Virus record (IMG/VR): IMGVR_UViG_3300041407_000352 | Span: 1-58,007 of that record | Length of the DNA stretch: 58,007 nt | Origin: a virus | Direction: 5' to 3' (one strand) | Shown: positions 2,857-56,669 of the stretch, one piece after another | Position numbering within the stretch: the stretch's first letter is position 1 | Layout: every line of letters begins with the position of its first letter | Notes under the pieces: generated by a model | Database searches by the model: none | Told to the model about the DNA's origin: nothing | What the model saw: only the letters and a program-made list of their open reading frames with translations | Program-made: the position numbers and the translations under genes

Positions 2857-3195
2857 ATGCGCTTGTTTTTAATGCCCGCCGGACTGATTGCATTGTCAGT
2901 AGCGGGCTGCACCTCTGCACCCAATTCGCCAAACATTACTCTGAACTCTAAAAAATTACCGGAGGAGTACGCCCGGTGCGTTTTCCCTAAGTTACAGAAG
3001 GATAATTCAAACACGGCAATGTCGGCGTCTAAGGGACGCTACAGAATCGTGGTCCAAAGCAGAGTATTGGCAGACGATATTCTCGAAGTCTACAAAACCT
3101 CACAGGGCAGTGAAATCGCGGTGTACCAGCGTATTCAATTGGCATCAGCAGTTGGGCGCGGTGCCCTTGAGCAGGCTGTACACGATTGCTTGTAA
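2857..3195 (+). CDS. Small lipoprotein, 112 aa
   Basis: The start ATG follows AAGGGA. The N-terminus has a basic residue, a hydrophobic stretch and a lipobox ending AGC (cleavage before Cys at about residue 18), so the mature protein would be lipid-anchored in the envelope. The rest is a small, unrecognised domain with Cys residues near the middle and at the C-terminus. It is the only plus-strand gene here, set between the endolysin and the broken spanin with just 3 nt to the endolysin stop. That suggests an inserted accessory gene. A role in superinfection exclusion is possible but not shown. Confidence 0.8.
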   Translation: MRLFLMPAGLIALSVAGCTSAPNSPNITLNSKKLPEEYARCVFPKLQKDNSNTAMSASKGRYRIVVQSRVLADDILEVYKTSQGSEIAVYQRIQLASAVGRGALEQAVHDCL

Positions 3196-3198
3196 ACG

Positions 3199-3624
3199 CT
3201 ACGGTACATCCTTGAAAAAGATGTGCCGCCCAAGCTTCAGCATCTGCTTGGCGCCCCTCGCCCAAGTTGGTGGCTTCGGCATTGTCGTCGCATAATAGTG
3301 AGTGGCACCGCCGGTAGGATCCGGCACCTTGCCATCGATCACTTGGTCAGCAGCGATCTGCGCCTTGGCGAACTCGCGAAACGGAATCGTCTTGGCGCCA
3401 CTCAGGTAGACGAAATTCGGATCGTTCTTGTTCCAGCAGCTGAACTGAAACGGCTTCTGGCACACGCCAGCGAAACCCTCCCCCCACCAGGAACGGTCCT
3501 TGCCATCGAATACACGGTTGCGAATGGTCCAGGCCACGGCGATCTGCCCGGCCAAGCTTTCACCGCGGGCTTCACCCCACAGCGTGCGCGCTAGAATGTC
3601 GCGGTCTTTTTCAGTTACTGGCAT
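3199..3624 (-). CDS. Endolysin, SleB-like cell wall hydrolase
   Basis: The product (141 aa) shows the Hydrolase_2/SleB pattern: ARTLWGEARGE near residue 15, AVAWTIRNRV, a Q-F-S-C-W region, and THYYA toward the C-terminus. These enzymes cut peptidoglycan glycan strands, and in phages they lyse the host. The conserved Glu of GEARGE is the expected catalytic residue. The ATG at 3624 has TGGAGAAAAG upstream. There is no signal peptide, so release depends on a holin, and candidates lie at 30.7-31.4 kb. It is the last gene of the late leftward operon and has its own upstream hairpin. Confidence 0.87.
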   Translation of the reverse strand: MPVTEKDRDILARTLWGEARGESLAGQIAVAWTIRNRVFDGKDRSWWGEGFAGVCQKPFQFSCWNKNDPNFVYLSGAKTIPFREFAKAQIAADQVIDGKVPDPTGGATHYYATTMPKPPTWARGAKQMLKLGRHIFFKDVP

Positions 3625-48640: not shown

Positions 48641-49468
48641 TCACCTATTGCGCTCGGCCGTATCCTTTTCGTCAACTTTAAATTTGAAGCGAGGAATTTT
48701 TATTTTGTACTCAGTCTTGCAAAATTCCGCCTGATAAAGGGCGACATGCTTTCCAATCTCCCCGCTTACTTTTTTCAAAAGCTTATCAAATAAAGCGCCG
48801 TCTCTATTTTTCGCTCCCAAAATCAATCCATTTAACAGGCAAGGGCGGAAGGGAAATATACCTGCACCACCGTCACTTTTTATTACCCGACTCTCTTCCT
48901 CGTACTCCCACTGCTTCGCCTTGGTTAAGAAAAGAATATTTAAAATTCTTTCGTGATCAGACTTTGAACCATCATTCCTAAATACTGGCCGCTCGGATTT
49001 ATACTCAACATCTAGTGCTATCAAGTCTTCATGATCAAAATTCAGCTTCCCATCCGACCAAGCGTTGATCGGTATCTTGAACTCTACTACCGCACCTTTG
49101 TGAAAATCTGCGTAATGAGACCACATTAGAATGCTGTTGGGGATTTTTGATAATGAAAGGACGGAAGCATCTTTCAACAAATCATTCAGCAGATTGCCTC
49201 CTCCAGAGCGGGCCTCAAGTCGCTTGCGGATCTTGCCTAACTCCTGAATTTTATCAACACCCTTCAGAAGGTTTAACCCTAGCCGATCATATAAAACAGG
49301 ATTAGTAGTCTTAATTGGAGATAGTTTTGTACGTGGCGTGGAAGGAAAACAATCAAAAGGATCATTAAAATCTGACGGATGTGTAAATTTTACAGTGCGA
49401 TCCGCTAGAAGCTTGAGAAGACCTTCGCCATTTGGAAGATATTTATAGCGATACATGTACTTAACCAA
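48641..49468 (-). CDS. DUF2971 family protein, accessory gene
   Basis: The 275-aa product has the DUF2971 marks: RYKYLPNGEGLLKLLADRTV, then THPSDFNDPFDC, LMWSHYADFHKGAVVEFKIP and KAKQWEYEEESRV. I chose TTG 49468 because GGAGAGG is 5 nt upstream and the usual N-terminus then begins nearby; ATG at 49456 or 49522 are alternatives. It is clearly more AT-rich than its neighbours and antisense to the pL operon, lying just before the methyltransferase. This fits a horizontally acquired gene. A role in defence or exclusion is a guess. Confidence 0.83.
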   Translation of the reverse strand: MVKYMYRYKYLPNGEGLLKLLADRTVKFTHPSDFNDPFDCFPSTPRTKLSPIKTTNPVLYDRLGLNLLKGVDKIQELGKIRKRLEARSGGGNLLNDLLKDASVLSLSKIPNSILMWSHYADFHKGAVVEFKIPINAWSDGKLNFDHEDLIALDVEYKSERPVFRNDGSKSDHERILNILFLTKAKQWEYEEESRVIKSDGGAGIFPFRPCLLNGLILGAKNRDGALFDKLLKKVSGEIGKHVALYQAEFCKTEYKIKIPRFKFKVDEKDTAERNR

Positions 49469-49524
49469 GCGACCCTCTCCATTACACCCGTCCATACTGA
49501 TCCGCATTTCAGTGCGGAACATAT

Positions 49525-49553
49525 AAATACCCCACTTCAACGAATCACGCCAG
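49525..49553 (+). repeat. 29-nt leader repeat, copy 2
   Basis: Matches 47480-47508 at 26 of 29 positions and lies 17 nt before the methyltransferase ATG. The two copies thus mark the leaders of successive rightward genes and flank the 343-aa gene and the DUF2971 gene. Confidence 0.75.
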
Positions 49554-49569
49554 ACGGCGAGGATCCCCT

Positions 49570-51294
49570 ATGGAAATCACTTACGGCTCGGTCTGCTCAG
49601 GCATCGAGGCGGCAACGCTTGCATGGAAGCCTCTCGGGATGCGCGCCACCTGGTTCGCCGAGATCGAAGCGTTCCCCAGCGCAGTACTCGCCCACCACTA
49701 CCCGAACACGCCGAACCTCGGCGACATGACCAAGCTCGGGGCCCTGGTCCTGGCTGGCAAGATAGAAGCACCGGACGTGCTGGTCGGCGGTACACCCTGC
49801 CAAGCCTTCAGCGTTGCCGGCATGCGCCAGGGACTGCTCGACCCGCGCGGCGCCCTCACCATCAAATACGTGGAGCTCGCAGATGCAACTGACTATGTTC
49901 GCGCCGGCAACAGAAAGTCTCCCTGTGTCATCGTCTGGGAAAACGTCCCCGGTGTCCTCAGTGACAAAGGGAACGCCTTCGGATGCTTTCTTGGCGCGCT
50001 TGCTGGGGAAGACTGCGAACTGCAGCCTTCAGGGAAAAGGTGGCCGGACGCTGGTTGTGTGTATGGACCCAAAAGAACAATCGCGTGGCGGGTCCTGGAC
50101 GCCCAATATTTCGGCCTGGCCCAACGACGCCGCCGTGTGTTCGTTGTCGCAAGTGCTCGAGACGGATTCGATCCCACCGAGGTACTTTTTGAGCGAGAAG
50201 GCGTGCGCCGGGATACTGCGCCGCGCCGAGGCCAGGGGCAAGACGTTACCGGAACAGCTCCTTTCGGCCCTGCGCTCCAGTGCGGATGTGGAGAAGTCTT
50301 CGGCGAAGAACTCGGACCGTACGGCTGCGTGAACTGCGAGGGAGATGAAGGCCCGGCGGTATCGATGTTCGGCGGGATCCCGGCCTTTGGTGGCCACAGC
50401 TTGGAAGGATCGGTCGAGCGCTCGGCGACGTTGACCGCAAAGGACAGCCGGCTCGACATGGAAAGCGAGACGTTTTTTGTTCAGCCGGACGTGATCGGCG
50501 CACTTACCAGCCACGCCTACAGCGGCGGCGCTGGTGGTCGACCTGATGGCGCAGCGGCTGGACACTTCCTTGCGGTGGCGCCATCGCTTCGCGCTCAGTC
50601 ACAGAGCAGTCATCGCGCTGACTCAGAAGCCTTCGTCGTGGCCGGCACACTCAACGCGAACGGCAAAGCGGCCGGCAGCGCCACTCAACAGGATGCAGAG
50701 TCAGGCCTGTTGGTGGTGCACGGTACGCAAGACCCAGGCGTTAGCAGCACTACCGCATTCGCGCTTGGGCGAAACAACGGGCAGGAAAACGCAGTGCTTG
50801 CCTTCTCCTGCAAGGATCATGGGGCAGACGCTGGCGAGATTGCGCCAACCCTTCGCGCCATGAACCACTCCGGAAGCCACGCCAATGCCGGCGGCCAGGT
50901 CGCCGTGTGCATCACTGGCGACATCACCCACACACTGAAGGCCGACGGCTTCGACGGCAGCGAGGACGGCACGGGGCGCGGCCAGCCGATTGTGGCCTGC
51001 AGAGAAATTGCCCAGACCCTGACCAGCAATTACGGAAAGCAGGTGGACAACACAGGCTCCGCCCTGGGACCCAACGTAGTTTCTTCGACCAGTTCGGTAC
51101 GCCGCCTTATCCCCCGCGAGTGCGAGCGCCTCCAAGGCCAGCCCGACGACTACACGCTCATCCCTTGGCGCGGCAAGCCCGCCAGCGAATGTCCGGACGG
51201 GCCGCGCTATAAGGCGATCGGGAACAGCAAGGCGGTCAGTGTCGTTCGTTGGATCGGGCGGCGAATCCTCAGGCAGATAGGCGAGCTAGTTTGA
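49570..51294 (+). CDS. DNA (cytosine-5) methyltransferase
   Basis: The 574-aa product has motif I (GSVCSGIEAA), motif IV with the catalytic Cys (GTPCQAF, C77), motif VI (WENVPG, E124-V126), motif VIII (QRRRRVFVV), and C-terminal motifs IX-X (RRLIPRECERLQG, AIGNSKAV). Between VIII and IX lies a long segment (about 210-520) made of loose repeats with TL or LT followed by a G-rich stretch. Probably protects phage DNA from host restriction. The target sequence is not predictable. GAGG lies upstream of the ATG. Confidence 0.93.
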   Translation: MEITYGSVCSGIEAATLAWKPLGMRATWFAEIEAFPSAVLAHHYPNTPNLGDMTKLGALVLAGKIEAPDVLVGGTPCQAFSVAGMRQGLLDPRGALTIKYVELADATDYVRAGNRKSPCVIVWENVPGVLSDKGNAFGCFLGALAGEDCELQPSGKRWPDAGCVYGPKRTIAWRVLDAQYFGLAQRRRRVFVVASARDGFDPTEVLFEREGVRRDTAPRRGQGQDVTGTAPFGPALQCGCGEVFGEELGPYGCVNCEGDEGPAVSMFGGIPAFGGHSLEGSVERSATLTAKDSRLDMESETFFVQPDVIGALTSHAYSGGAGGRPDGAAAGHFLAVAPSLRAQSQSSHRADSEAFVVAGTLNANGKAAGSATQQDAESGLLVVHGTQDPGVSSTTAFALGRNNGQENAVLAFSCKDHGADAGEIAPTLRAMNHSGSHANAGGQVAVCITGDITHTLKADGFDGSEDGTGRGQPIVACREIAQTLTSNYGKQVDNTGSALGPNVVSSTSSVRRLIPRECERLQGQPDDYTLIPWRGKPASECPDGPRYKAIGNSKAVSVVRWIGRRILRQIGELV

Positions 51295-51528
51295 TCAATC
51301 CCACAGATTGGTATCCCCCTGGATGAGGGGCTGAGCTACTCCATTTGTACGCTGGAGGTCCAGCCAATCCCTGCTTCTTGGCACGTTGAACACACGAACA
51401 TGCAATTGCATCAAGTGCAACGCCGTACCGGATATTTTGTACCAGCCGCAATCTGAACAGCTAACCAATCGTCCTCCTTGAGTTTCTGGAACATCGGTAG
51501 CTGGCTGTTCACAGATAAAACACCGCAT
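51295..51528 (-). CDS. Zinc-ribbon protein, paralogue 1, 77 aa
   Basis: SD GGAGG precedes ATG 51528. C3, C6, C24, C27 in MRCFICEQ and VSCSDCGWYKISGTAL form a zinc ribbon. The later part is helical. It ends with no gap to the methyltransferase stop, antisense to it. It is related to the genes at 52594-52830 and 52956-53195, but has a different C-terminus. Confidence 0.8.
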   Translation of the reverse strand: MRCFICEQPATDVPETQGGRLVSCSDCGWYKISGTALHLMQLHVRVFNVPRSRDWLDLQRTNGVAQPLIQGDTNLWD

Positions 51529-51875: not shown

Positions 51876-51945
51876 TGGTAGTTGCGAATTCTCAGTCTTT
51901 CCCGCCACTCCACAGCCCGGGCATGACCCGGCAATAGGACGCCCC

Positions 51946-52548
51946 ATGCCCACAGAAAACAAAATCGCTGAGCCGCTGAAGGTTGAGCGCTCGACAGTGA
52001 CGAAGCTGGTCATCACCGGCGCGGCAAACCTCGATCCAATCAATGTCTTCCTTGAGGACTTGGCCCCCCGCAAGGGCAAGATCACCGTCAGCTGCTGGGA
52101 CAAGAGCTGGCACGCCTACTGGGGCGGCATGTGGGACGGTCTCACCATCGGCCAGTTCTTCTGCCGCCTCGATGAGCACTACATCGTCGGCTATTTCTCA
52201 CCGAGCCTAAGCTCGATGAGGTTTTCAAATGATGCGCTGATGACCCTGGCCAAGAAGTCGGTCATTGACCGGCGCAGGATGCGCAAAGGGTATTGGGAGT
52301 TTGGCGACAGCCTGGATCAGGAAGACGCCCGCGACCTCTTCGACCAGATCGACGACCTTCGCGGTGTTGAGTCGATTTCGGTGGGGCACCAACAGGGCCA
52401 ACTTTTGACCGACTTGTTCGGCCCTGAGTGGTGGCACCTGGTGGACGATAAAGCCGTCGAGTCGAATCCAGACTGGCATTACCTGTGCCGCATTATCGCC
52501 GCGGTGCAACAGGCCCTTGGCCAGGAACAGCAGCAGGTGGCCGCATGA
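51946..52548 (+). CDS. Hypothetical early protein, 200 aa
   Basis: ATG follows a GC-rich hairpin and AGGACG. The product contains KITVSCWDKSWHAYWGGMWD and GYFSPSLSSMRFSNDALMTL, then a helical C-terminus. Resembles a hypothetical protein common in Pseudomonas phages. Overlaps the DUF4406 fragment by ATGA. Confidence 0.77.
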   Translation: MPTENKIAEPLKVERSTVTKLVITGAANLDPINVFLEDLAPRKGKITVSCWDKSWHAYWGGMWDGLTIGQFFCRLDEHYIVGYFSPSLSSMRFSNDALMTLAKKSVIDRRRMRKGYWEFGDSLDQEDARDLFDQIDDLRGVESISVGHQQGQLLTDLFGPEWWHLVDDKAVESNPDWHYLCRIIAAVQQALGQEQQQVAA

Positions 52549-52643
52549 AGCGCATCTACCTCAGCGGGCCGGCGCGGACCTGGCCGACTCCGCTTAAACA
52601 TCGATCAATCGACCTGCCTGGTGGGAGTCGATTGTTGGAATGA
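52545..52643 (+). pseudogene. Truncated DUF4406 gene start, copy 1
   Basis: ATGA overlap and then MKRIYLSGPARTWPTPLK, the N-terminus of a DUF4406 protein. After about 14-17 codons it runs into the antisense tail of the zinc-ribbon gene and stops at 52643. The ATGA overlap suggests it was the original coupled start. Confidence 0.7.
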
Positions 52644-52830
52644 TCCCCACTCCCTGTGCTGCAATCCACCTCTGAGTCAGGTCTACATCGAAGCGCCAGT
52701 CGTGGGCTTTCATTAGAACAAGCACCTTACCTGTGATGCGATAGTGCCCGCACTGCGGGCAAGCTCTTTCCTCATACTTACTACCAGCATCGACTCTCAC
52801 CGCGAGGCCGCCACAAATTTCGCAAATCAT
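52594..52830 (-). CDS. Zinc-ribbon protein, paralogue 2, 78 aa
   Basis: C3, C6, C24, C27 in MICEICGG and ACPQCGHYRITGKVLVLMKA; ends PTIDSHQAGRLIDV. SD AAAGGTG. Antisense to the surrounding genes, inserted between a truncated DUF4406 start (52545) and a second one (52887). Confidence 0.82.
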   Translation of the reverse strand: MICEICGGLAVRVDAGSKYEERACPQCGHYRITGKVLVLMKAHDWRFDVDLTQRWIAAQGVGIIPTIDSHQAGRLIDV

Positions 52831-52858
52831 GAACTACACCTTTCGGCTGTTTTTTAAA

Positions 52859-52881
52859 AAATGTAGTCGATCTCAGAGAGG
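52859..52881 (+). repeat. Duplicated leader AAATGTAGTCGATCTCAG-A-GAGG, copy 1
   Basis: The 23 nt match 53223-53245 except for one base. It includes the GAGG SD for the DUF4406-type start at 52887. It sits directly upstream of the second DUF4406 fragment, after the zinc-ribbon gene. Confidence 0.85.
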
Positions 52882-52886
52882 CTTCA

Positions 52887-53081
52887 ATGCCAACAGATAC
52901 CGGCAAGTCGTTTTACTTCAGTGGACCGATGACCGGCCAGTCTCAAGCAGCCGCCTTATACGTCAATCAGACGACCCGCCTGGTGCGAATCGATGGTTGG
53001 AATTGTCCCGGAGCCTTGTTGTTGCGCAAGCCATTTCCGGGTCAGCTCCACATTAAAGCGCCATCCGCGGGCATGCATTAG
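52887..53081 (+). pseudogene. Truncated DUF4406 gene start, copy 2
   Basis: MPTDTGKSFYFSGPMTGQSQ is a DUF4406 N-terminus with the SGPMTG motif. After about 20 codons (near 52946) it enters antisense zinc-ribbon sequence and the frame ends at 53081. It has its own leader and SD. A non-functional remnant. Confidence 0.72.
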
Positions 53082-53195
53082 CACAAGCGCCGTACCAGAG
53101 ATTCGATAGTGCCCGCACTTCGAGCAGTCTCTTTCCTCGTAGTCACCTCCCGGATCTATATCCGTCGCTTGCTCGTCGCAAATCAAACAGGTCAT
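52956..53195 (-). CDS. Zinc-ribbon protein, paralogue 3, 79 aa
   Basis: ATG 53195 follows AAAGGGGAAG. C3, C6, C24, C27 in MTCLICDE and DCSKCGHYRISGTALVLMHA; ends PTIDSHQAGRLIDV like paralogue 2. Antisense and again inserted in the start of a DUF4406 gene. The three paralogues have diverged over the whole length, so they are not recent tandem copies. Confidence 0.82.
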   Translation of the reverse strand: MTCLICDEQATDIDPGGDYEERDCSKCGHYRISGTALVLMHARGWRFNVELTRKWLAQQQGSGTIPTIDSHQAGRLIDV

Positions 53196-53222
53196 GAACT
53201 TCCCCTTTTTGGCTGATCGATC

Positions 53223-53245
53223 AAATGTAGTCGATCTCAGTGAGG
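53223..53245 (+). repeat. Duplicated leader, copy 2
   Basis: AAATGTAGTCGATCTCAG-T-GAGG is one base different from 52859-52881, and provides the SD for the intact DUF4406 gene at 53252. Confidence 0.85.
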
Positions 53246-53251
53246 TGCCCT

Positions 53252-53578
53252 TTGCCCGCAGCAAACCGAAAGTCGATTTACCTCAGCGGACCGCTGACCG
53301 GCCTCCCCGGCCTCAACTTCCCCGCCTTCGCCGCAATGACCGCCAACTTGCGCGCCGACGGCCACACCGTCACCAACCCCGCCGAGCTCAACCCTGACGG
53401 CGGCTCCTGGAACGACTGCATGCGCCGCGACATCGCCGCCCTGATGAACTGCGACACCGTGGCCACGCTCCCGGGCTGGGAGCATTCAAAGGGCGCCACC
53501 CTCGAAGTGCTGATCGCTGAACGCCTCGGCATGACGGTTGTGAATGCCCATGATCTGGTATCGATGGAGATTGCATGA
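53252..53578 (+). CDS. DUF4406 protein (nucleoside deoxyribosyltransferase-like), intact copy
   Basis: TTG 53252 with GAGG 6 nt upstream is chosen because it aligns with the ATG of the truncated copy at 52887. The 108-aa product has SIYLSGPLTGLPGLNFPAFA and DCMRRDIAALMNCDTVATLP, then WEHSKGATLEV, a DUF4406 fold related to nucleoside 2-deoxyribosyltransferases. The expected role is nucleotide metabolism or modification, unproven. The two truncated starts upstream suggest repeated insertion into this gene. Confidence 0.85.
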   Translation: MPAANRKSIYLSGPLTGLPGLNFPAFAAMTANLRADGHTVTNPAELNPDGGSWNDCMRRDIAALMNCDTVATLPGWEHSKGATLEVLIAERLGMTVVNAHDLVSMEIA

Positions 53579-53985
53579 TGACTGAAGCACAGAAAACCCC
53601 AGCCGCGAGGTGGCGGCAAGAAGGCCAGGCCGATCCACACTGCGAGCACTACAACTGCCGGCGGGCGGCACTGACCCTAGGTGAGCTGACCGATGATGAG
53701 CTGGCCAATGGCGTGTTCCTGCATGGGAACGAGCCGCTGAATATCAACGCGCTGCTCCGCAAGACACCCGGCTATCACTCGGCGGTTGTCTGGCTCACGG
53801 CCGGCAAGGATCGGATCCGCTGGTTGTCTAGAGCGCTTGAGGAGTCAGTTGCCCGGGAACAAGCTCTGCAGCTGCGCCTGAACGCAGCGGATCAGCGGTT
53901 AGATGAATTGGAGTGCGTGCCTCGTCCGAAACTTGAGCTGGCCGGCCATCCAGTGCAGGCATCGGATCAATTTGAATCCCCGTGA
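53575..53985 (+). CDS. Early protein, 136 aa
   Basis: ATGATG start overlapping the DUF4406 stop. A Cys/His cluster near the start (PHCEHYNCRRAALTLGELTD), then HGNEPLNINALLRKTPGYHS, and a coiled C-terminal half. It overlaps the leftward 108-aa gene by about 160 nt at its 3' end. Confidence 0.74.
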   Translation: MMTEAQKTPAARWRQEGQADPHCEHYNCRRAALTLGELTDDELANGVFLHGNEPLNINALLRKTPGYHSAVVWLTAGKDRIRWLSRALEESVAREQALQLRLNAADQRLDELECVPRPKLELAGHPVQASDQFESP

Positions 53986-54154
53986 GAGCGGAAACCCAAG
54001 CGTCGTACGCTTGCTTTTGACGCAACACAGCATCTTCCCATCGGTAGCCCGACACTTCGCGGGAAACCACCAGGGTCATCAGTTGATTGGTTGTTGCATC
54101 GAGATCGAGCAGCAGGTGGTGGGCGTTAAATCGAAAATCATCGGTAGAGGGCAT
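53828..54154 (-). CDS. Hypothetical antisense protein, 108 aa
   Basis: The product begins MPSTDDFRFNAHHLLLDLDA, then NQLMTLVVSREVSGYRWEDA and RQKQAYDAWVSALTGI, a protein-like helical pattern. Its last about 50 codons overlap the previous gene in antisense, and this part looks less protein-like, so its end may have been extended by loss of a stop. SD GGAAC is weak. Confidence 0.55.
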   Translation of the reverse strand: MPSTDDFRFNAHHLLLDLDATTNQLMTLVVSREVSGYRWEDAVLRQKQAYDAWVSALTGIQIDPMPALDGRPAQVSDEARTPIHLTADPLRSGAAAELVPGQLTPQAL

Positions 54155-54261: not shown

Positions 54262-54504
54262 CTATGGCAACTGGCTGTTTATCCAGCGCTCAGCGACTTC
54301 CATTGCCTCGGCCAATGCGCTTGGATAGTCCGTCCAAGGCCCTTGCAGTTGAGCGACCGCGTTCGCCAAGCCTTGGACCCCGCTCTCTTCCAAAACGTGT
54401 GCCGCGACTGGCGAATCGTCATTGGGTCTTTCCCAATCAAACTTCACGACTAACTTGTGTCCGCGATACACATGCGTAATTGGCGTATCCAGGCCGTGTG
54501 ACAT
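54262..54504 (-). CDS. Small antisense protein, 80 aa
   Basis: ATG 54504 follows AGGAGAG. An alpha-beta protein (THVYRGHKLVVKFDWERPND ... GLANAVAQLQGPWTDYPSAL) that resembles a small phage hypothetical. One of three leftward genes inside the rightward operon (53.8-54.9 kb). Family unknown. Confidence 0.7.
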   Translation of the reverse strand: MSHGLDTPITHVYRGHKLVVKFDWERPNDDSPVAAHVLEESGVQGLANAVAQLQGPWTDYPSALAEAMEVAERWINSQLP

Positions 54505-54606: not shown

Positions 54607-54906
54607 CTACTTCGACGAAGCCGCTCGACGATAACTAGCACCTCCATCAGCGGCCAGCTGCCGAGCTCGACCGACACCCCAAGCCAGGGTCCTAGTCATC
54701 GATTCGCCGGGCCGCGATTCGACAGACTCTTCATGCAACGCCAAGCCGTCGGGAGCATAAATCCCAATGAACATTTCAGTCTCCCGGGCACGCGAGAGCC
54801 TGACCTGCACGTCAATAAAAGTACCGTCATTGAGAGTTTCATCGTGCGTTCTGGTGTGGAGTTCTGGGTCTGCCCACGCCCAAAAAACATCGCCTCGAAG
54901 TCTCAT
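54607..54906 (-). CDS. Small antisense protein, 99 aa
   Basis: ATG 54906 follows AGGAATAAC. The sequence DETLNDGTFIDVQVRLSRAR and ETEMFIGIYAPDGLALHEES suggests a small beta-rich domain, with a basic C-terminus. Same orientation as the previous gene. The 54907-55071 gap has no gene. Confidence 0.68.
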   Translation of the reverse strand: MRLRGDVFWAWADPELHTRTHDETLNDGTFIDVQVRLSRARETEMFIGIYAPDGLALHEESVESRPGESMTRTLAWGVGRARQLAADGGASYRRAASSK

Positions 54907-55071
54907 GAGTTATTCCTGCCCATCCTTTGTGGGTGTCGACAGAGTTCAAAACTAGACCCATTCGGCCGAAGTGCAACAGGGCCGAAAGGGAATCGGACAG
55001 CTGGTCTGAACAGCTGTACAAATTCAAATTCCCGTACAACTTTCAGCCGCTATAGCGGCAAGGACGAAGTC

Positions 55072-55506
55072 ATGACCAAAGAAAAGCTCGCAGCTGAACT
55101 GAACGGCATCCAATACCCGGCACACCGCTCGATCACGAAAGAACAGATTGCAACAGCGAAGGCTGCCGGCCTGGTGATCGTCTTCGGCGCCAGCGATGAT
55201 CTGATGGAATTCGAAGGTGCCATACGCGATGAGTTTGGTTGCTACGACGGCGGTACTGCGTGGATTGATGCTCAAGGGTTGCTTGATCGCGACCAGATCG
55301 AAAACGAGGACGAAGCGGTCGCGGCCTATGTTGCTCGCCGGAAAGACGCCGAATCGATTACGGCCATATGGGACACGGACGGTTTCAGCTGGATTTACGA
55401 AACGAATATTCCGCATTCAACCTTCGACGTGTGGGACGGCGAGGACGGCTACTGTCGCGGTATTGTTTTCGCGCTGGCTGATCTGAAATCACAGGTGACG
55501 CCATGA
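55072..55506 (+). CDS. Conserved phage protein, 144 aa
   Basis: ATG follows AAGGACG. ELNGIQYPAHRSITKEQIAT, then LVIVFGASDDLMEFEGAIRD, a family seen in many Pseudomonas and enteric phages. Acidic, soluble. Function unknown. ATGA overlap to the following micro-ORF. Confidence 0.8.
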   Translation: MTKEKLAAELNGIQYPAHRSITKEQIATAKAAGLVIVFGASDDLMEFEGAIRDEFGCYDGGTAWIDAQGLLDRDQIENEDEAVAAYVARRKDAESITAIWDTDGFSWIYETNIPHSTFDVWDGEDGYCRGIVFALADLKSQVTP

Positions 55507-55559: not shown

Positions 55560-55981
55560 TTGTAAAAATCGCGTTTGATCCAGCCAATCTGAAAGTTGAG
55601 CACGAGGCCTGGCCCGCATTCGATGCGGGGGGCATTACCCTCAAGATCTGGGCGCTCTACAAGAAGCACTTCGTGACCTCCCAGCACTTTCGAGAATCAC
55701 TGGTGCAAATGGCAGAGCTGTTTGAGCGAATGCTCGACATCGATGACCACGATATTCGGCCTTACATGAACATCGATGAGTTCATGGGCTATCTCGGGGC
55801 CTGCGGCATCTACGGAGCAGTGGTCGGGCCGCGCCATAAGGAGATGGCCGAGTGGGTAGTCAGGTATTGGGATTATTTCAACCTCTCCACCCAGCGGGCA
55901 GTGACTCTGCAGTTCAAGGTTGTGAAAGAAGTCGATGAGACATTAACCATCTGCGGCTTCGGCCCACCCGCCACCGTGTAA
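55556..55981 (+). CDS. Early phage protein, 141 aa
   Basis: ATG overlaps the micro-ORF stop. The product has WPAFDAGGITLKIWALYKKH and a C-terminal beta region. Helical middle (RESLVQMAELFERMLDIDDH). No named domain recognised. Confidence 0.74.
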   Translation: MIVKIAFDPANLKVEHEAWPAFDAGGITLKIWALYKKHFVTSQHFRESLVQMAELFERMLDIDDHDIRPYMNIDEFMGYLGACGIYGAVVGPRHKEMAEWVVRYWDYFNLSTQRAVTLQFKVVKEVDETLTICGFGPPATV

Positions 55982-56000
55982 CCCCTCTTCCACCTACCAG

Positions 56001-56035
56001 CCTGCCGGTGTAAGGCAGGCGAAGAATTCCGCATG
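56001..56035 (+). repeat. Hairpin-SD leader, copy 1 (followed by a dead start)
   Basis: CCTGCC-GGTGTAA-GGCAGG hairpin (56001-56019), then GAAGAATTC and ATG at 56033, which stops after two codons. It matches the leader at 56259-56291 with compensatory stem changes. Confidence 0.75.
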
Positions 56036-56216: not shown

Positions 56217-56258
56217 AATACTGTCTCCAATTTCTATATTTCCTAATTAGAACATAGT

Positions 56259-56291
56259 CCGCCGGTGTACGGCGGGCGAGGAATTCGTATG
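56259..56291 (+). repeat. Hairpin-SD leader, copy 2
   Basis: CCGCC-GGTGTAC-GGCGG hairpin (56259-56275), then GAGGAATTC and ATG 56289. Loop GGTGTA is the same as in copy 1 and the stem change T-A to C-G is compensated. Confidence 0.78.
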
Positions 56292-56669
56292 CCTGAAATC
56301 AAGTGCGAATACGGCCACACCCTGCGAATCGGCACCGACGAATGGGTCAACCAGCTTTCTCTGGACCAGCTTCGTTACGCTCGCCAGCAGATGGCTGAGA
56401 AGATCGATAAGGCCGAGCAAGGCCCGCGCCGGACAGTCTGGCTGGTCGATGACGGCGTCAGTATCGCTGGCTTTTATTGCGAAAACGCTTTCGCCGATGC
56501 CGCCGATCATCTGCTCTGGATCTACAAAGACGTGTTCGTGAGGGAAGCGAAGGACTTCGGTGGCGGGCCAGGGTCGGTCCACGACTTCAAGCAATCTATC
56601 CCACACATCGAGCCGCGACGCGTCACTCAGTTCGAATACGACGTCGAGTGGTTTCCCGCAAAACCTTGA
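56289..56669 (+). CDS. Early phage protein, 126 aa
   Basis: ATG 56289 follows GAGGAATT. The product starts MPEIKCEYGHTLRIGTDEWV, has a basic-acidic helix (DQLRYARQQMAEKIDKAEQG) and a C-terminal W-Y-K-D segment. Cys residues suggest a small metal- or nucleic-acid-binding domain. Function unknown. Confidence 0.77.
   Translation: MPEIKCEYGHTLRIGTDEWVNQLSLDQLRYARQQMAEKIDKAEQGPRRTVWLVDDGVSIAGFYCENAFADAADHLLWIYKDVFVREAKDFGGGPGSVHDFKQSIPHIEPRRVTQFEYDVEWFPAKP

Follow-up and report, generated by a model that had tools for sequence, protein, structure and literature searches.

Phage morons are accessory ORFs, typically with their own promoter and terminator, lying between genes that are adjacent in relatives (PMC3029335), and short boundary sequences direct the homologous exchange of phage modules (PMC3029335, PMC3974807). 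Start-associated sequences (SAS and ESAS) are known from Cluster K mycobacteriophages (PMC3203893), and in Vibrio type VI secretion loci successive replacements of immunity genes leave old fragments in a row (PMC5361080). The locus described here has something of each. It belongs to a Pseudomonas phage, represented by an IMG/VR virus record of 58,007 nt (the window, which spans the whole record). Its zinc-ribbon (ZnR) genes are, like morons, small accessory genes on the opposite strand that are absent from a close relative, with a lower G+C content (0.52–0.54, vs. 0.57 for the window and 0.64 for the DUF4406 gene beside them); unlike morons, they sit inside a gene start, bring a replacement start with them, leave remnants, and are stacked twice. 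As with boundary sequences, exchange falls within a brief conserved stretch, namely the first DUF4406 codons, but this boundary is coding and is duplicated by insertion, and so becomes a site for stacking. Repeated leaders right before the starts of many non-structural genes, some with inverted repeats, recall SAS and ESAS; they differ in sequence and host, however, and the Pseudomonas-phage repeat runs into the first codons (MPTENK) and takes part in module exchange. The row of old fragments, with members closer to other strains' genes than to each other, parallels the Vibrio arrays, except that the old gene there is kept functional while the DUF4406 locus keeps only start scars. Proteins of this same kind (CxxC..CPxCGxYR) are encoded in the same early accessory region by Pseudomonas phages PP9W (UAW06804.1) and H66 (an unannotated ORF), but with only ~39–47% identity over the matched stretch, and not in a DUF4406 start. 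A search of the literature on DUF4406 and on Pseudomonas zinc-ribbon morons found nothing about this locus. Morons, short boundary sequences, and start-associated repeats are already established ideas; what is new is the combination, an accessory gene that enters a coding start, carries a replacement for that start, and is stacked twice, intermediate stages surviving in relatives. The reading preferred here, with a probability of about 0.68, is that a moron-like accessory element sits in two stacked units where a phage DUF4406 gene begins, having been spread and stacked by exchange between phages.

The two antisense ZnR genes lie between the gene at 51946–52548 and the DUF4406 gene at 53252–53578, each with a DUF4406 start remnant to its left and a new in-frame start to its right. 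This arrangement of truncated starts, leaders, antisense genes, and intact DUF4406 gene had been proposed in the initial annotation, along with a third ZnR paralogue further upstream, and all of the parts were found in place:

49570–51294, plus strand: C5 cytosine DNA methyltransferase gene (Pfam DNA_methylase, E = 1.3e-34), convergent with ZnR3
51295–51528, minus strand: ZnR3, a distant zinc-ribbon paralogue of 77 aa, facing the methyltransferase gene (ORF and alignment)
51905–51961, plus strand: repeated start leader CCCGGGCATGACCCGG..ATGCCCACAGAAAACAA, preceding the gene at 51946–52548
51946–52548, plus strand: upstream gene, phrog_3451, with no assigned function (PHROG; 93% nucleotide identity in L125)
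52545–~52587, plus strand: remnant 1 of the resident DUF4406 start (MKRIYLSGP...), frameshifted (aligns with the 3446–3490 region of L125)
52594–52830, minus strand: ZnR1, a four-cysteine zinc-ribbon gene of 78 aa (ORF, alignment, tree, predicted model)
52831–52886, minus strand: ZnR1 upstream region, shared with the divergent start and containing the 23-nt repeat at 52859–52881
52887–~52937, plus strand: remnant 2, truncated (unit-supplied codons 52887–52910, then DUF4406 first codons 52911–52937)
52956–53195, minus strand: ZnR2, a four-cysteine zinc-ribbon gene of 79 aa (ORF, alignment, tree)
53196–53251, minus strand: ZnR2 upstream region, shared with the divergent start and containing the 23-nt repeat at 53223–53245
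53252–53578, plus strand: intact DUF4406 gene, a replacement start (53252–53275) fused to a resident-type body (53276 on)

The stop codon of the upstream gene overlaps the ATG of remnant 1 (ATGA). Direct repeats at 364–365 nt spacing, of 183 nt (72% identity), 51 nt (78%), and 23 nt (96%), are far above chance. The intact gene begins with TTG and matches Pfam PF14359 (E = 1.5e-26, 93 bits against a cut-off of 22) as well as the PHROG nucleoside 2-deoxyribosyltransferase family. A DNA search of phage records matched the flanking genes only weakly.

More than 100 related DUF4406 loci were gathered, nearly all without a ZnR gene at the start; since the pattern scan used to collect them favors cassette-free starts, this share is no measure of prevalence. 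The initial annotation had suggested looking for a cassette-free version to define the junctions, and locus L125 provides one. There the two genes that flank the stack in the window are joined directly, window positions 51907–52587 and 53276–53592 matching L125 4126–3446 and 3480–3164 at 93% identity (93–95% for the DUF4406 body against L124 and L125, both cassette-free). The window therefore carries an insert of ~690 nt, with ~35 nt of DUF4406 start on both sides of it; as for morons, the extra genes are absent where the flanking genes adjoin. Both breaks had been placed at nearly the same codon, after the SGP(MTG) motif. Remnant 1 aligns with L125 up to about codon 14, frameshift included, and remnant 2 also ends just past SGPMTG. 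An alternative reading took 52572–52596 for the C terminus of a DUF4406 gene with an internal deletion (ADLADSA*), and was dropped because L125 shows the frameshifted 5′ end continuing. The tail of the junction (..GYAGCCACRCC) could also be read as the 3′ end of a methyltransferase gene, an attractive idea given how many ZnR genes face genes of that kind, but a stretch of ~14 nt is too short to establish it.

ZnR genes were also found at DUF4406 starts elsewhere (L006, L011, L012, L014, L036, L037, L041/L120, L118, and L249). Neither of the two outcomes that the initial annotation had named as refuting its reading, cassette-free relatives without gain or loss at the junctions and ZnR homologues never beside DUF4406, was observed. 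Single units, each with a remnant, a ZnR gene, and an intact DUF4406 gene, are seen in L037 and, within a Pseudomonas genome, in L249. L120/L041 has the same upstream gene as the window (88%), a start remnant, and a ZnR2-type gene, within which the L041 contig ends. Four loci (L005, L012, L014, and L036) have only decayed DUF4406 relics, read by eye, on the right, so the DUF4406 gene can be lost afterwards. No intact one-unit parent with ZnR1 plus remnant was found among the relatives.

These comparisons define what a unit contains. From left to right, the remnant of an older DUF4406 start is followed by an antisense ZnR gene, and beyond the divergent upstream region of that gene comes a new ribosome-binding site with about eight start codons. 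The repeated 23-nt leader of the initial annotation is present (96% identity), but it is better described as the upstream region of the ZnR genes, and part of their cassette; it is likewise found in front of ZnR genes without an intact DUF4406 gene beside them (L005, L006, L013, and L118, those of L013 and L118 having other genes as neighbors). What the DUF4406-linked units add is ~8 codons (MPxxxxxKS), in frame with IYLSGP and replacing the resident MKR.

With co-linear units at regular spacing, one conceivable history would be simple tandem duplication of one unit (ZnR, leader, and DUF4406 5′ end) in this phage lineage followed by divergence, which would give the same order of parts. The two copies are not each other's nearest relatives, however. 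ZnR2 is 64% identical to ZnR1 at the amino acid level (ZnR3 is 32% identical to ZnR1), and in a tree of 28 ZnR proteins ZnR1 groups with L002 (94/87) and with L003/L004 (99/96), while ZnR2 is nearest to L041 (86% over 56 columns). Forcing the two together as sisters costs 27.5 log units and is rejected (p-AU = 0.004). The leaders split in the same way as the tree: unit 1 has the ending GAGAGGCTTCAATG, which L037 shares and L002 nearly matches, and unit 2 has the ending GTGAGGTGCCC of L249. Together these make a recent local duplication improbable, and the AU test largely refutes it; the separate histories proposed for the two genes in the initial annotation are borne out. A very old duplication predating the whole ZnR subfamily, with lineage sorting, is a formal possibility.

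The left junctions bear on how often such units have been inserted. Window unit 2 has a left junction that can be aligned with the ones in L120, L037, L249, and L014, although the upstream genes differ (their products end QQVAA, LTYTPKVAA, or AVTA). One junction common to five loci with different upstream genes suggests a single old insertion that has since recombined at the start of DUF4406, a better explanation of the pattern than five insertions. This goes against the repeated targeting of the DUF4406 start envisaged earlier. It also weakens a second alternative, two successive homology-facilitated illegitimate insertions of ZnR-start-DUF4406 fragments, each anchored by homology on the right and joined without homology inside the old start on the left. 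The same structure would be expected, including a homologous right side and a non-homologous left one, and this model has been proposed for the Vibrio immunity-gene arrays (PMC5361080). The shared junction indicates, though, that unit 2 did not arise anew in this phage, and all left breaks fall within the first ~14 codons, where unanchored ones might scatter over the whole gene, so this explanation is unlikely, if somewhat less so than tandem duplication. Unit 1 has a junction that fits the shared one only imperfectly in the alignment, and other remnant lengths occur in unit 1, in L118, and in the L006/L011/L012/L036 group, from either later deletion or separate events. It is also possible that ZnR1 and ZnR2 arrived together, already linked, through a single insertion.

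A further alternative is a specialized mobile cassette that inserts ZnR into gene starts, resembling a transposon, an integron, or a retrohoming element and served by a recombinase in trans. It would account for the roughly ten loci with ZnR at a DUF4406 start, and for at least seven further non-redundant ones with a start leader to the left and a start module to the right of the ZnR gene (L007, L017, L040, L046, L048, L056, and L062). Left neighbors vary, however, and are often convergent genes whose stop codon overlaps that of ZnR, and no conserved sequence, such as an integron-type recombination site, was found at the left ends past the ZnR stop codon. The only ORF within a unit is ZnR, with no recombinase or transposase ORF, and no terminal inverted repeats or fixed unit ends were found in the units. 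The flanking DUF4406 copies are not an exact target-site duplication either: left remnants read ATC and right copies ATT, a contrast that depends on a single codon, and as these are the codons of two different start classes the two sides stem from different classes. The units thus lack the transposase, terminal inverted repeats, and exact target duplication of a transposon or insertion sequence, and the active targeting of the DUF4406 start suggested in the initial annotation found no support; a mobile cassette is very improbable, the least probable of the three alternatives. ZnR genes also occur at many other places, after methyltransferase-like genes and before other gene starts, and the DUF4406 start exchanges ZnR-free leaders as well.

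This last point suggests where recombination occurs. Two starts are common among ZnR-free DUF4406 genes, GCATGAAGCGC-ATCTAC, which overlaps the upstream stop codon, and a hairpin leader ending GTGAAACGG-ATTTAC. Start type switches about 22 times along the tree of DUF4406 bodies, and well-supported branches require at least six of these switches; for the first class, shuffling gave a mean of 26.5. Among 85 relatives, body nucleotide 3 carries 0.84 of 0.91 bits of mutual information with start type, and later sites are at background. Switching on the body tree, with a link confined to nucleotide 3, shows that start modules are swapped between phages with a breakpoint in the first codons of DUF4406; selection on the codon containing nucleotide 3 could strengthen the link between start and site, but not the switching on the tree. 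The recombination-prone sequence is therefore the DUF4406 5′ end rather than the 23-nt leader, the two candidates named at the outset. The ZnR unit uses the same point: the bodies of the window, L037, and L249 nest in a clade with mainly MKR starts (SH-aLRT 96) yet read ATT at that codon; ZnR-start bodies in the tree number only three. The DUF4406 start is, in short, a general swap point.

If the stack was built by exchange between phages, as preferred here, an early illegitimate joining would have placed a ZnR gene and its divergent start onto DUF4406. General or phage recombinases could then act on the 25–50 nt of conserved DUF4406 5′ sequence flanking the cassette, and homologous recombination in the duplicated start could lead to whole units being gained, lost, or replaced. 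If a locus of the L002/L037 type underwent unequal exchange with one of the L041/L249 type, unit 1 would be stacked before unit 2, the start in the first locus recombining with the remnant in the second to give exactly the order seen in the window. The truncated starts would be scars of earlier DUF4406 starts, and the gene would survive because each unit supplies a new one. Such a resolved case with zero, one, and two units indicates how accessory genes may enter and pile up via first-codon exchange, and opens the long-standing question of recombination at boundary sequences to testing in simple phage crosses. More tentatively, ZnR units may be start-replacing passengers, each bringing a divergent start module able to fuse in frame with the conserved first codons of a host gene, so that a unit could insert into a coding start while the gene survives; the duplicate of those codons that stays behind would be a built-in homology for gaining, losing, or swapping further units. 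If true, this would be a general, enzyme-free route of accessory-gene turnover in Pseudomonas phages.

Beyond this locus, small zinc-ribbon genes seem to form a large family in Pseudomonas phages, most of it unannotated. Of 400 Pseudomonas genomes sampled, 128 contain relatives of ZnR, as do many viral contigs; these relatives often converge with genes that look methyltransferase-like from their C-terminal motifs and diverge from genes with a repeated start leader. The position of ZnR3, facing a methyltransferase gene, is that of the ZnR genes in L035, L042, L054, and L058. C3, C6, C24, and C27 are invariant in 41 members, and the predicted model (pLDDT 90.6; strands followed by three helices) has the two CxxC knuckles and compact beta-rich fold of a zinc ribbon. 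The fold prediction called for in the initial annotation is a confident one, but without a significant fold match, and searches of Pfam, PHROGs, NCBIfam, PADLOC, and PDB sequences and two fold searches gave nothing significant regarding function. A median dN/dS of 0.26 indicates that the genes are under purifying selection, and they are probably expressed from the minus strand. As a guess, ZnR could be a small accessory factor of the lysogenic state that binds nucleic acid or protein. In Hollowayvirus H66 (L274, KC262634) an intact, unannotated ZnR-family ORF lies at ~2937–3180, antisense and upstream of a gene pair ending in an N-(deoxy)ribosyltransferase-like gene.

ZnR units have a conserved upstream block and only weak terminator-like matches, and a search for a sigma-70-like promoter for these genes found none. 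The block TGATCGCTGAACTGTAGCTGATCCCTCACC is strongly conserved upstream of ZnR in L035 (1912–1941), L042 (3955–3984), and L058 (3955–3984). It is an imperfect inverted repeat with GATC sites and no sigma-70 consensus, and is possibly a promoter or operator.

Other repeated sequences are found nearby. The leader of the gene at 51946–52548 recurs before many genes in related loci, and conserved islands at window positions 49525–49572, 51905–51961, 55043–55084, 55975–56035, and 56255–56300, of 25–60 nt and with 80–100% identity among otherwise different loci, are mostly just upstream of gene starts. Several hold an inverted repeat (CCCGGGCATGACCCGG, CAGCCGCTATAGCGGC, or GCCGCCGGTGTACGGCGGGC-like), and repeated start leaders of several classes are thus present among these related phages. 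The Cluster K SAS GGGATAGGAGCCC resembles GGCATAGGACGCCCC, the Pseudomonas leader just before the ATG, although this may merely reflect a common ribosome-binding site. Further minus-strand ORFs lie amid plus-strand genes in the window at 48641–49540, 53828–54154, 54262–54504, and 54607–54906, and are candidate accessory genes. A second ZnR pair, with the genes 342 nt apart, is found in genome G273 (L250, 1–3237). It was apparently made by deletion between a methyltransferase-side ZnR gene and one at a DUF4406 start, and deletion between two ZnR loci thus seems to be another way in which ZnR pairs can form.
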